Of a stretch of DNA of 64,000 nucleotides, positions 53,237 to 58,611 are shown in pieces. A program made the position numbers and the translations under genes. Location: NCBI RefSeq assembly GCF_010726955.1, contig NZ_AP022603.1, positions 930,001 to 994,000 of the forward strand. Reading direction: 5' to 3'. The notes beneath the pieces are model-generated. The model had not been told where the DNA came from and made no database searches. It saw only the letters and a list, made by a program, of their open reading frames with translations. This DNA comes from Mycolicibacterium fallax (GTDB lineage: Bacteria; Actinomycetota; Actinomycetes; Mycobacteriales; Mycobacteriaceae). The number at the start of each line of letters is the position of its first letter. The stretch's first letter is position 1.

Positions 53237-54079
53237 TCAGATCCGGGTCAGCCGCAGCCGCCAGGCGTCCGGGCCGCGCTGCTCGTAGTCCACCGCGATC
53301 CGGCCGCCGCTGCGATCGTGCAGCTGGTGCAGCAGCGGGATTGGGTCGTGCGGCGCGATCAGGATCAGCGCGCCGCCGGCGGGCACCGCGTCGAAGGCGC
53401 CGAAGACCGTGGCGTGCCGGATCGAGTGCGGTACCTCGCGGACGTCGAGCACCGGGTCGGCGTTGTCCTGCTCGCACTGGCAGACGTGGCCGCCGATGCT
53501 GTGCTCGTGCAGTTCGGCCGGGGCGCCGTGGTCGTGGCCGCCGTGGTCGTGGCCGCCGCAGCCGTGATCGTGGCCGCCGCAGCAGTCACCGCCGCCGCCG
53601 AGCAGTTCGTGCATACCCTCGGTCACGGTGGCCAGCGACACCCCGGGATCGGCGGCCACGATCGGCAGGATCCGGTCGTTCTCGTCGATCAGGTGGGCGT
53701 TGAACGCCACCCGCAGCGCCTCGGCGGCGGCCGCGACCCGAACCGGCGAGCGATCCCGGCGAATCTGGTCCACCAGCGAGCCGATCACCCGGTGCATGGC
53801 GATCATCGATTCGATCAGCGGCCGGGCCCGTTCGGTGCGGGCCGCCGCCGGGTACAGCGACTCCTCCTCGGCCACGGCGTGCGGCATCAGCTCCTCGGTG
53901 AGGAACTCCACCAGCGCCGCGTGGGCGAGGTCGATCTCGGTGCCGCGTTCGGCCGCGACCAGCACCGATTCCACCAGCGAGCCGAGTGCGCCGGCGAGCT
54001 CGGCGTGATGGTTCTTGATGGTTTCGACCGCCTCGGCGTCGGCGGCGGTGGACGAGACGATCAGGCCATCGATGGACAT
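53237..54079 (-). CDS. Hemerythrin (HHE) - DUF2249 fusion protein
   Basis: A 280-residue protein with AGGAGG before the ATG. Residues ~15-165 are an HHE/hemerythrin-like helix bundle with the di-iron ligand pattern (IKNHHAEL; MPHAVAEEESLYP; AMHRVIGSL; AFNAHLIDEND). A Cys/His-rich linker (CCGGHDHGCGGHDHGGHDHG) and HSIGGHVCQCEQD follow. The last ~70 residues (PVLDVREVPHSIRHATVFGAFDAVPAGGALILIAPHDPIPLLHQL) are DUF2249, a domain often encoded with nitrite/NO-metabolism genes. It is divergent from the NirK-like operon and may sense or buffer NO, O2 or metal. Confidence 0.88.
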   Translation of the reverse strand: MSIDGLIVSSTAADAEAVETIKNHHAELAGALGSLVESVLVAAERGTEIDLAHAALVEFLTEELMPHAVAEEESLYPAAARTERARPLIESMIAMHRVIGSLVDQIRRDRSPVRVAAAAEALRVAFNAHLIDENDRILPIVAADPGVSLATVTEGMHELLGGGGDCCGGHDHGCGGHDHGGHDHGAPAELHEHSIGGHVCQCEQDNADPVLDVREVPHSIRHATVFGAFDAVPAGGALILIAPHDPIPLLHQLHDRSGGRIAVDYEQRGPDAWRLRLTRI

Positions 54080-54154
54080 GCCGGCCTCCTGTTTCCGGTG
54101 GGGCGACGCGACCCGTGCCGCGCCGCTGGATTTACCACCTCCAATTTACTACGG

Positions 54155-56011: not shown

Positions 56012-58611
56012 ACCGCGGCGACTGGCATCTGCGGGCCGGATCGGTGGTGTTCGGCTGGCTGGCCGCGCTGGTCGTCGTCGCGGTGGCGCACCGGTTCATC
56101 CCGCTGTCCGGCTGGCTGCTGGTGCACCTGCTGGGGCTGGGCGCGGCCGGCAACGCGATCCTGATCTGGAGCAGGCACTTCACCGACGCGCTGCTGCGCC
56201 GCAAGCCCGAACCGCCCTATCCGGGCCAGGTTCTTCGGCTGGCCGCCTTCAACGTCGGCGCGGTCACCGCGATCGCCGGCATGCTGACCGCCCGGTGGCC
56301 GGTGCTGCTGGCCGGCGGCATCGTGGTCGCCGGTGTCGCGATACTGCACGCCGCCGACCTGGTGAGGTTCCTGCGCACCGCGCTGCCGGCCCGCTTCGGC
56401 ATCACCGTGCACTACTACATCGCCGCCGCACTGACGCTGACGCTGGGCGCCGGACTCGGTGTGGCGATGGCGAATTCGGCGCTGCCGGGCGTGCTGGCCG
56501 ACCGGTTCCGCACCGCCCACGCGGTGCTCAACCTGTTCGGCTGGATCGGGTTGACGGTGCTGGGCACCCTGATCACGCTGTGGCCGACGATGCTGCGCAC
56601 CCGGATGGCCGACGGCGTCGAACGCGCCGCCCGGCGCGGCCTGCCCGCCCTGCTGATCGCGCTGGCGATCGCCGTCGGCGGCGCCCTGGCCGGGACGCCG
56701 GTGGTGATCGGGCTCGGCGCGCTGGGCTATCTGGCGGCGACGGGCTGGGTGCTGTGGCCGCACCTCGACGAGATCCGGCGCAAGCGCCCGGCGGATTTCC
56801 CGACGCTGTCGGTGCTGTGCGGCGTCGGCTGGCTGCTCGGGTCGCTGGGCTACGTCGCGGTCGGGCTGCTGCGGGCCCCGGACTGGCCGGCCGCGGTCGA
56901 GGCCACCGCCGCGGTGGCCCCCGGACTGCTGGCGGGCTTCCTGGTGCAGGTGCTGTTCGGGTCGCTGGCCTACCTGATCCCGGTGATGGTCGGTGGCCGG
57001 GCGTCGATGCTGGCGGCCATCACCGAGCTGGAGCGCGGCGCCCCGTGGCGGCTGAGCATGGCCAACGCCGGGCTGCTGCTGTGCGTGCTGCCGGTGCCCA
57101 GCCTGGTCCGGGTCGGCGCCTCGGTGCTGGTGCTGATCGCCTACGGCGGGTTCCTGTGGCACCTGGCCCGCGCGGTGGTGCTGGCCCGCCGAAATCGCGG
57201 GGTGCCGTCCAAACTCGGCCCGCCGCAGCCGGTTGCGCTGACCAAGCGGCTCGGCAGCGCCGCCGTCGGGCTGGCCGTGGTCATCCTGACCGCGACCGGG
57301 GCGGTGGCCCTGGATCCGGCCGCGGTCGGCGTGGCCACCGCGCCGCCGACCGCGGTGGCGGCCACCGGGCACACCACCGAGGTGCAGGTGCACATCGAGG
57401 GCATGCGTTTTGTCCCGAACGTCATCGTCGTTCCGGCCGGCGACCGGCTCCGAATCACCCTGTCCAACACCGGGACCGACCGTCACGACCTGGTGCTGGC
57501 CAACGGCACCCGGACCGAGCGGATCGCACCCGGGGAAACTGCGGTGCTCGACGCCGGGATCATCGGATCCGATCTCGACGGGTGGTGCTCGGTGGCCGGG
57601 CATCGCCAGATGGGCATGGTGCTCACGGTGCGGGCCACCGGGGCCGCGCCGGCCGCGGGTCCCGGAGCCGGCTCGGGCCACCATGACCCGGCCGCGCATT
57701 CGGGCTCGGGTGCACCGGGCGCCGGTGCACTGGGGGCCGCCGACGTGGCACGCAGCCTGGGCACCGTCGCGGGCCCCGATTTCGCGGCCCGCGACCCACG
57801 GCTGCCCGGCGCGGGCCCGGCCCTGCACCGGGTGACGCTGACCGTCACCGAGGCGCAACGCGAGGTGTCCCCCGGAATCACCCAGCGGCTGTGGACATTC
57901 GGCGGTACCGCGCCGGGTCCGACGCTGCGCGGACGCGTTGGCGACACCTTCGAGATCACCCTGATCAACGACGGCACCATCGGGCACTCCATCGACTTCC
58001 ACGCCGGCGCGCTGGCACCGGATCGCCCGATGCGCACCATTGAGCCCGGCGAGCAGCTGGCCTACCGGTTCACCGCCACCCGCGCGGGCATCTGGCTGTA
58101 TCACTGCTCGACGATGCCGATGTCGGTACACATCGCCAACGGGATGTTCGGCGCGGTCATCATCGATCCCCCGGACCTGCCGCCGGTGGACCGCGAGTAC
58201 GTGCTGGTGCAGTCGGAGATGTATCTGGGACCCGAGGGCGGCGAGGTTGACGCCGACAAGGTCCTCGCCGAAACCCCGGACCTGGTGGTGTTCAACGGCT
58301 ATGCGCAGCAATACGATCACCGGCCGCTGGCCGCGCGGGTCGGCGAACGGATCCGGATCTGGGTGCTGGCCGCGGGCCCGAACCGGGGCACCTCCTTCCA
58401 CGTGGTCGGCGGACAGTTCGACACGGTGTGGTCCGAGGGCGACTACCGGCTGCGTCCGGGCACCGGCGGCGCGCAGACCCTGGGGCTGTTTCCCGCCCAG
58501 GGCGGCTTCGTCGAGCTGAGCCTGCCCGAGCCGGGCCGCTACCCGTTCGTTTCGCACGCCATGGTCGACGCCGAACGCGGTGCGCACGGGGTCATCGAGG
58601 TACGCCGCTGA
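56008..58611 (+). CDS. nirK: Membrane-domain/cupredoxin/copper nitrite reductase (NirK-like) fusion
   Basis: An 867-residue three-part protein. Residues ~10-410 form a polytopic membrane domain with His-containing helices (VHLLGLGAAGNAILIW; TAHAVLNLFGWIGLTVLGTLITLWPTML), plus a last helix at ~415-435. Residues ~455-545 are a blue-copper domain with ligands H493, C527, H532 and M537 (WCSVAGHRQMGM). Residues ~590-867 are a two-domain CuNIR: type 1 ligands H660, C700, H708, M713; type 2 ligands H665, H699, H850; catalytic Asp and His D663 and H798. Spacings match AfNiR (H95/D98/H100, H135/C136, H255/H306) almost exactly. It should reduce nitrite to NO outside the membrane. Confidence 0.9.
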   Translation: MNRGDWHLRAGSVVFGWLAALVVVAVAHRFIPLSGWLLVHLLGLGAAGNAILIWSRHFTDALLRRKPEPPYPGQVLRLAAFNVGAVTAIAGMLTARWPVLLAGGIVVAGVAILHAADLVRFLRTALPARFGITVHYYIAAALTLTLGAGLGVAMANSALPGVLADRFRTAHAVLNLFGWIGLTVLGTLITLWPTMLRTRMADGVERAARRGLPALLIALAIAVGGALAGTPVVIGLGALGYLAATGWVLWPHLDEIRRKRPADFPTLSVLCGVGWLLGSLGYVAVGLLRAPDWPAAVEATAAVAPGLLAGFLVQVLFGSLAYLIPVMVGGRASMLAAITELERGAPWRLSMANAGLLLCVLPVPSLVRVGASVLVLIAYGGFLWHLARAVVLARRNRGVPSKLGPPQPVALTKRLGSAAVGLAVVILTATGAVALDPAAVGVATAPPTAVAATGHTTEVQVHIEGMRFVPNVIVVPAGDRLRITLSNTGTDRHDLVLANGTRTERIAPGETAVLDAGIIGSDLDGWCSVAGHRQMGMVLTVRATGAAPAAGPGAGSGHHDPAAHSGSGAPGAGALGAADVARSLGTVAGPDFAARDPRLPGAGPALHRVTLTVTEAQREVSPGITQRLWTFGGTAPGPTLRGRVGDTFEITLINDGTIGHSIDFHAGALAPDRPMRTIEPGEQLAYRFTATRAGIWLYHCSTMPMSVHIANGMFGAVIIDPPDLPPVDREYVLVQSEMYLGPEGGEVDADKVLAETPDLVVFNGYAQQYDHRPLAARVGERIRIWVLAAGPNRGTSFHVVGGQFDTVWSEGDYRLRPGTGGAQTLGLFPAQGGFVELSLPEPGRYPFVSHAMVDAERGAHGVIEVRR

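Follow-up and report, generated by a model that had tools for sequence, protein, structure and literature searches.

A copper nitrite reductase fused to a membrane domain of predicted heme-copper oxidase fold in Mycolicibacterium fallax

We analyzed a 64,000-nucleotide stretch of the Mycolicibacterium fallax genome (contig NZ_AP022603.1, positions 930,001 to 994,000; hereafter the window), in which a single gene encodes an 867-residue protein with a copper nitrite reductase (CuNIR, NirK) at the end of a polytopic membrane domain and a blue-copper domain (cupredoxin). How could electrons reach such an enzyme, and what would its large membrane half contribute? From the models described below we lean, with chances that we judge only a little better than even, toward a membrane-tethered NirK that is fed from menaquinol via a heme-bearing, degenerate oxidase-like half. 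The source genome is 4.16 Mb in one contig, with a completeness of 100. The parts of the fusion gene, in window positions, are as follows.

56008..58611, + strand: fusion gene for membrane domain, cupredoxin and copper nitrite reductase; ATG start, 867 aa, final gene of a probable operon
56008..57312, + strand: residues 1-435, predicted 12-helix heme-copper oxidase subunit I fold plus a 13th helix (411-435), from the predicted model, Foldseek, VIA and topology
56125..56127, + strand: codon of H40 in transmembrane helix 2 (TM2), marked by its conservation in aligned relatives
56518..56520, + strand: codon of H171 in TM6, marked by its conservation and its alignment with the first His of the oxidase TM10 HxH motif
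57346..57642, + strand: residues 447-545, cupredoxin (PF13473), type 1 ligands H493, C527, H532 and M537
57775..58608, + strand: residues 590-867, copper nitrite reductase domain (TIGR02376; PDB 2dv6 and 6the; ligands)

The joining of the three domains in one protein, as proposed in the initial annotation, is borne out by 13 predicted helices and by family models, which place a cupredoxin (PF13473) at residues 451-515, Cu-oxidase_3 at 613-722, and the CuNIR model TIGR02376 at 590-865 (E 6.2e-53). The architecture had also been offered as new, which we reject, since relatives are common and the N-terminal region is that of a class already described. Excerpts of earlier papers report actinobacterial NirKs of about 900 aa with an N-terminal transmembrane domain and cupredoxin in P. 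acnes and Corynebacterium pseudotuberculosis (PMC4770552, PMC5338063), give as class traits a transmembrane extension of about 400 aa, a CX4HX4M cupredoxin and a length of about 700-990 aa (PMC4770552), and describe the C. pseudotuberculosis protein as having 882 aa and probably 13 N-terminal helices (PMC5338063). The M. fallax fusion, with 867 aa, 13 helices and the motif C527-x4-H532-x4-M537, has the same domains, length and cupredoxin motif; nothing essential differs, and it is a member of this class. The same excerpts give the membrane part, called "of unknown function" (PMC4770552), neither a role nor a fold, whereas our modeling places it in the heme-copper oxidase fold. No title or abstract opening among the literature searched assigns the oxidase fold to this membrane domain.

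The nine NirK residues named in the initial annotation are present at the given numbers: type 1 ligands H660, C700, H708 and M713, type 2 ligands H665, H699 and H850, and catalytic D663 and H798. Conservation was followed in 80 loci, the best 80 of 517 stretches with a relative in a scan of one genome per species; 79 are titled actinobacteria and one "UNVERIFIED_ORG: Bacillus" (L027). The type 2 ligands, the catalytic pair and the type 1 His and Cys are kept in 80/80, and the axial ligand is Met in 73 and Leu in 7. The seven loci with Leu (L037, L050, L053, L065, L072, L073 and L080) are all titled Nocardioides; elsewhere, exchange of the axial Met for Leu raises the potential of type 1 copper. 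The AfNiR-like spacing claimed earlier needs a correction, because C700 and H708 are 8 residues apart, one fewer than the 9 residues of AfNiR. The 8-residue spacing matches that of Hyphomicrobium NirK (2dv6) in alignment. This protein, the best PDB sequence match, also carries a cupredoxin before its CuNIR, but is a 447-residue chain lacking a membrane domain. The cupredoxin of the fusion has a complete type 1 site, and all four ligands are kept in 120/120 of the full-length relatives among those listed and in 80/80 genome loci. One relative from Speluncibacter (P0136, 721 aa) has the membrane half together with a copper part that, by eye, seems to lack most ligands and the cupredoxin; it is possibly a decayed NirK.

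The fusion is not filed as a TIGR02376 equivalog because it scores 180.2 bits, under the curated cut-off of 296.3, though the catalytic residues are there. That low score, and the name "multicopper oxidase domain-containing protein" which NCBI gives to many of the listed relatives, could mean that the copper half is some other two-domain copper oxidase. We consider this very improbable, given the type 2 ligands and catalytic Asp and His in every one of the 80 loci and the finding that the best-scoring PDB chains shown for this half (2dv6 and 6the) are nitrite reductases. An unfused relative in locus L115 exceeds the cut-off (320.7), and the source genome encodes NarG and a quinol-dependent nitric oxide (NO) reductase (qNOR), so that a path from nitrate to nitrous oxide (N2O) is possible on paper.

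The membrane half very probably has the fold of heme-copper oxidase subunit I, to judge from its predicted structure. The model of residues 1-435 has a predicted local distance difference test score (pLDDT) of 95.8 and a predicted template modeling score (pTM) of 0.93; it consists of 12 helices and a 13th that crosses outward and leads to the cupredoxin, and the model, Foldseek and VIA concur in a pseudo-threefold 12-helix fold of the subunit I type. An internal repeat of about 138 residues occurs in this half. Lys and Arg number 22 on the side taken as inside and 4 outside, and this positive-charge pattern would have the copper domains face outward. Like CcoN of the cbb3 oxidases and NorB of NO reductase, the membrane half shows the 12-helix fold over about 385 residues and has a TM10-like helix, which carries H171. 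It differs from both in sharing only 13% identity, in lacking the TM7 HH, the HxH and most ligands, and in a helix match that is one four-helix unit off, with rows of the Pfam model PF00115 (COX1) giving yet another register.

Residue conservation was counted in a MAFFT alignment of 336 sequences (240 proteins, 80 loci and 16 stand-alone genes, sets that are related and partly overlap). H171 on TM6 is His in 336/336, H40 on TM2 is His in all 326 relatives with a residue at that position, and Q314 on TM10 is Gln in 325/329. H114, by comparison, is His in 199/200 full-length forms and in at most 3/16 stand-alone forms. The six histidines that serve oxidases as ligands of the low-spin heme, high-spin heme and CuB/FeB are not kept, only H40 and H171 being universal; the canonical HH of TM7 and HxH of TM10 are absent, and neither helix has a conserved His. 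We therefore reject a working oxidase or NO reductase in this half, most of the ligands being missing. Position 173, which with H171 would make an HxH-like motif, is also His in 8/16 stand-alone relatives (L115-L130), so that some proteins of this family may have a larger set of heme ligands than the fusions do. The initial annotation had suggested that the module, with histidines of its own, could allow direct electron input; the predicted oxidase fold and two near-universal histidines agree with this, while the electron input itself is part of the mechanism that we infer below.

Where these histidines would lie in an oxidase was approached by sliding the inner helices along three oxidase profiles, with 300 column shuffles each. 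TM6 was placed on canonical TM10 in 3/3 profiles, where H171 coincides exactly with the first HxH histidine (z 4.4, 4.5 and 5.3; column shuffles equally good in 10, 6 and 0 of 300). In oxidases this His is the proximal ligand of the high-spin heme. TM10 was placed on canonical TM2, again in 3/3 profiles (shuffles as good in 9, 4 and 5 of 300), and there the canonical His falls at residues 303-304, which are not His in the fusion. The top NorB placement of TM2, which is not significant, puts H40 on the FeB His of TM6. Because TM6 falls on TM10 and TM10 on TM2, the assay suggests that the membrane half is shifted by one four-helix unit relative to the oxidases, in the manner of a circular permutation. 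This shift is not proven, given the conflicting PF00115 register, a threefold repeat that blurs registers, and a control that was good only for TM10.

Several results weigh against the oxidase-like assignment and the mechanism built on it. Just 4 Foldseek rows reach E <= 0.001, the gathering score of PF00115 is missed (24.1 bits against 34.8), and COX1 is missing from the hmmscan result for the window protein. Among 49 membrane-domain sequences, COX1 matches 4 (best 2.1e-5) and the unrelated DUF3040 weakly matches 6 (best 0.023). A profile search of the PDB sequences gave no match. With hhalign, either membrane protein (this half or the 381-aa protein encoded before it) against nine single oxidase, NO reductase (NOR) and NnrS sequences and a six-member NorB group gave a best E of 0.028; hidden Markov model comparisons in both directions reached 1.1e-5, with mixed registers. 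Of the six oxidase histidines no more than two survive, and for TM2 the shuffles matched as well as the real helix in 138-195 of 300. The positive control of the helix assay recovered TM10 (2/2) and put 0/4 of its TM2/TM6 tests exactly on the right His, although one of these, on FixN, landed near the likely TM6 His, a site not preset in the assay. The registers also conflict, since PF00115 rows align TM5-8 with the N-terminal part of COX1 and the helix assay aligns TM6 with canonical TM10. Finally, an excerpt of the earlier description judges the N-terminal cupredoxin too far from the core for effective transfer (PMC4770552).

In the mechanism that we favor, the membrane half would be a degenerate relative of the oxidase/NO-reductase superfamily that has lost its O2- or NO-reducing center and retained a single heme, bound by H171, with H40 on the opposite side. 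Electrons taken from menaquinol, by this half alone or together with the 381-aa partner, would go by way of the heme to the cupredoxin copper, which faces outward; the type 1 copper of NirK would receive them next, and nitrite would be reduced at the type 2 copper. The membrane half would also anchor NirK on the outer side of the membrane, with NO released outside. An alternative is that the oxidase-like half has retained its fold and some structural histidines without any cofactor and is no more than an anchor or scaffold; the cupredoxin would then be supplied with electrons from outside, for example by the bcc complex or a small copper protein. The paucity of conserved histidines and the loss of the HH and HxH motifs would fit this, as would the existence of actinobacterial NirKs without a membrane part: in one genome of the same genus (G243) the match covers residues 421-865 only, and an excerpt of the earlier description likewise states that the transmembrane part is not in all actinobacterial NirKs (PMC4770552). 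Yet the retention of H40, H171 and Q314 across fused and stand-alone relatives would be needless in a pure anchor; a single helix would suffice; and a second protein of predicted oxidase fold accompanies the fusion in 75/80 loci. We consider a mere anchor unlikely.

That second protein, of 381 aa, also has a predicted 12-helix heme-copper oxidase subunit I fold, in which H61, H286 and H300 are invariant. It had been called NnrS-like, and it is indeed polytopic and lies in an NO-type gene set, with at least 3 of its 120 listed UniRef relatives named "NnrS family protein"; the NnrS models, however, do not match it. No Pfam or NCBIfam family was found for it at E <= 0.1, PF05940 (NnrS) matches 2/42 of its relatives with a best E of 0.15, and hhalign against one annotated Agrobacterium NnrS gave a best E of 0.2; on these tests we reject the name NnrS. 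Across 149 phylum genomes the NnrS model yielded a single match at E <= 0.001, which stayed under the cut-off, in a search that had no positive control, as the 14 control genomes gave 0. The 381-aa protein and the fusion's membrane half are themselves barely alike by hhalign (E 0.015, probability 3; E 0.22 in a second run).

The two membrane proteins could nevertheless bind, sense or remove the NO made by NirK, in an NnrS-like role, and not supply electrons. The three visible NnrS names, the neighboring hemerythrin/DUF2249 and Cys-containing regulator genes, and the alignment of H171 with the first TM10 His of NorB all speak for this; in NorB that His holds the NO-binding heme. A relative of the source-genome qNOR occurs in 7/151 genomes of the family; among the 18 genomes that hold a full-length fusion, only the source genome and G291 have it, and NO may therefore have to be disposed of in some other way. 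This scarcity agrees with an excerpt reporting Nor to be absent in many cases among NirK Clades 2-4 (PMC10999283). Against such a role, the membrane half lacks the FeB/CuB ligands on TM7 and the low-spin heme pair, so that NO reduction of the NorB type is not expected of it, no NnrS model matches, and fusion to a cupredoxin points to electron transfer. NO handling thus seems to us quite unlikely, and we retain electron supply from menaquinol as the preferred role. In its most specific form, which we offer tentatively and think doubtful, the membrane half and the 381-aa protein would be a new kind of quinol dehydrogenase. Both would be stripped-down, heme-b-carrying relatives of subunit I of the oxidases, and the first may have been rearranged by one four-helix unit; in place of oxygen or NO reduction they would carry out menaquinol oxidation, in the service of a CuNIR fused to one of the two.

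The membrane-NirK fusion is a widespread class by protein, locus and genome counts. Of 7997 candidates scored in the protein search, 850 are relatives at E <= 1e-3, and the 120 listed have 91-100% query coverage and 55-99% identity. Some match occurs in 89 of 151 genomes of the family, and in 18 of them (22 places) it spans at least residues 10-860, which does not support the earlier statement that NirK is not usual in mycobacteria; in the same genus, 3 of 10 listed genomes hold a match spanning residues 10-860. In the phylum, some match occurs in 58 of 149 genomes, and in 23 of these a row reaches the membrane half.

In distant actinobacterial families the membrane domain is a separate gene. 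Twenty stretches were surveyed; L134 and, split into two pieces, L133 have the fused order, and L132 is a fragment at a contig end, leaving 17 (L115-L131). The stand-alone gene adjoins a separate NirK in L115, L116, L117 and L118; in L115, NirK can start 6 bases past the stop of the membrane gene, and the L118 NirK scores just under the TIGR02376 cut-off (294.6). In L119 the neighbor is a different multicopper oxidase with a cupredoxin. The other 12/17 stand-alone loci have no NirK match in the fetched stretch, from which we conclude that the module has other uses; this counts against the mechanism favored above. L125 has the membrane gene together with the 381-aa gene and a hemerythrin/DUF2249 match, and no NirK. 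Taken as sequence arrangements, the fused and stand-alone forms support a working link of the membrane module with NirK, plus other uses. In L124 (5609-7625) the stand-alone membrane gene and a molybdopterin oxidoreductase gene are about 0.9 kb apart, hinting at partners other than NirK.

The remaining features of the M. fallax locus are the following.

53237..54079, - strand: gene for a hemerythrin + DUF2249 protein (Pfam PF01814, PF10006), divergent from the operon
54143..54165, + strand: AT-rich palindromic element whose last bases are the likely GTG start of the regulator
54163..54873, + strand: winged-helix regulator gene, 236 aa from the likely GTG at 54163; helix-turn-helix families in Pfam/NCBIfam
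54866..56011, + strand: gene for the 381-aa membrane protein, predicted heme-copper oxidase subunit I fold, invariant H61, H286 and H300

The regulator stop (54873) overlaps the 381-aa gene, whose stop (56011) overlaps the start of the fusion. From these overlaps the three genes probably form one operon and are likely to be translationally coupled. A tblastn survey (E <= 1e-4, anywhere in the fetched stretches of the 80 loci other than the window, some of which end at contig ends) found the 381-aa protein in 75/80, the regulator in 68/80 and the hemerythrin/DUF2249 protein in 64/80, with order or strand differing in a few. Of six window genes outside the block, five were found in 0/80 and one, an alpha/beta-hydrolase-like open reading frame, in 4/80. 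The block delimited by the initial annotation is thus a real unit, its genes recurring across the loci where outside genes hardly do. Elsewhere in the window, the G+C content drops to 0.60-0.66 between about 10000 and 40000, like that of a foreign insert; up to 8000 and beyond 40000 it is about 0.69-0.75.

The Cys-containing regulator and the divergent hemerythrin/DUF2249 gene, both named earlier, hold up as described. The regulator probably starts at GTG 54163 and not at 54115, the start of the mechanical open reading frame. Numbered from 54115, its C189, C203, H206 and C236 (C-x13-C-x2-H-x29-C) are invariant in 55 aligned rows. This Cys/His set recalls iron-sulfur (Fe-S) regulators such as SufR, an NCBIfam model that matches weakly (E 0.008), and through such a cluster the protein may sense NO or redox state. 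The element at 54143-54165, AATTTACTACGGTTTATTCCGTG, is the single match in its own genome at up to 3 mismatches, and a related motif lies near the regulator start in 38/65 loci examined, against 0/65 in one shuffle of each; it is probably a promoter/operator. That it ends in the likely start codon is suggestive of a leaderless, self-regulated transcript. The hemerythrin/DUF2249 protein, with C200, C202, H218, H222 and H244 invariant in 47 rows, may handle NO damage.

If the preferred reading is true, a menaquinone-based, single-membrane bacterium could reduce nitrite without soluble cytochrome c or azurin, and the oxidase fold points to a way in which electrons could be brought to nitrite in soil actinobacteria. 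NirK Clade 3 is reported to hold most Actinobacteriota sequences and to be prevalent in all biomes sampled except geysers (PMC10999283); should the fused forms belong to this clade, their electron route bears on soil NO and N2O. Recognition of the fold turns a part once said to be of unknown function into a testable heme-protein candidate for which two histidines and a partner protein can be named. The heme-copper oxidase superfamily would also gain two families at its margin, with which one could ask how the fold loses its metal center. If the two proteins do act as a quinol dehydrogenase, an oxidase core would have come to work in reverse, as a source of electrons.

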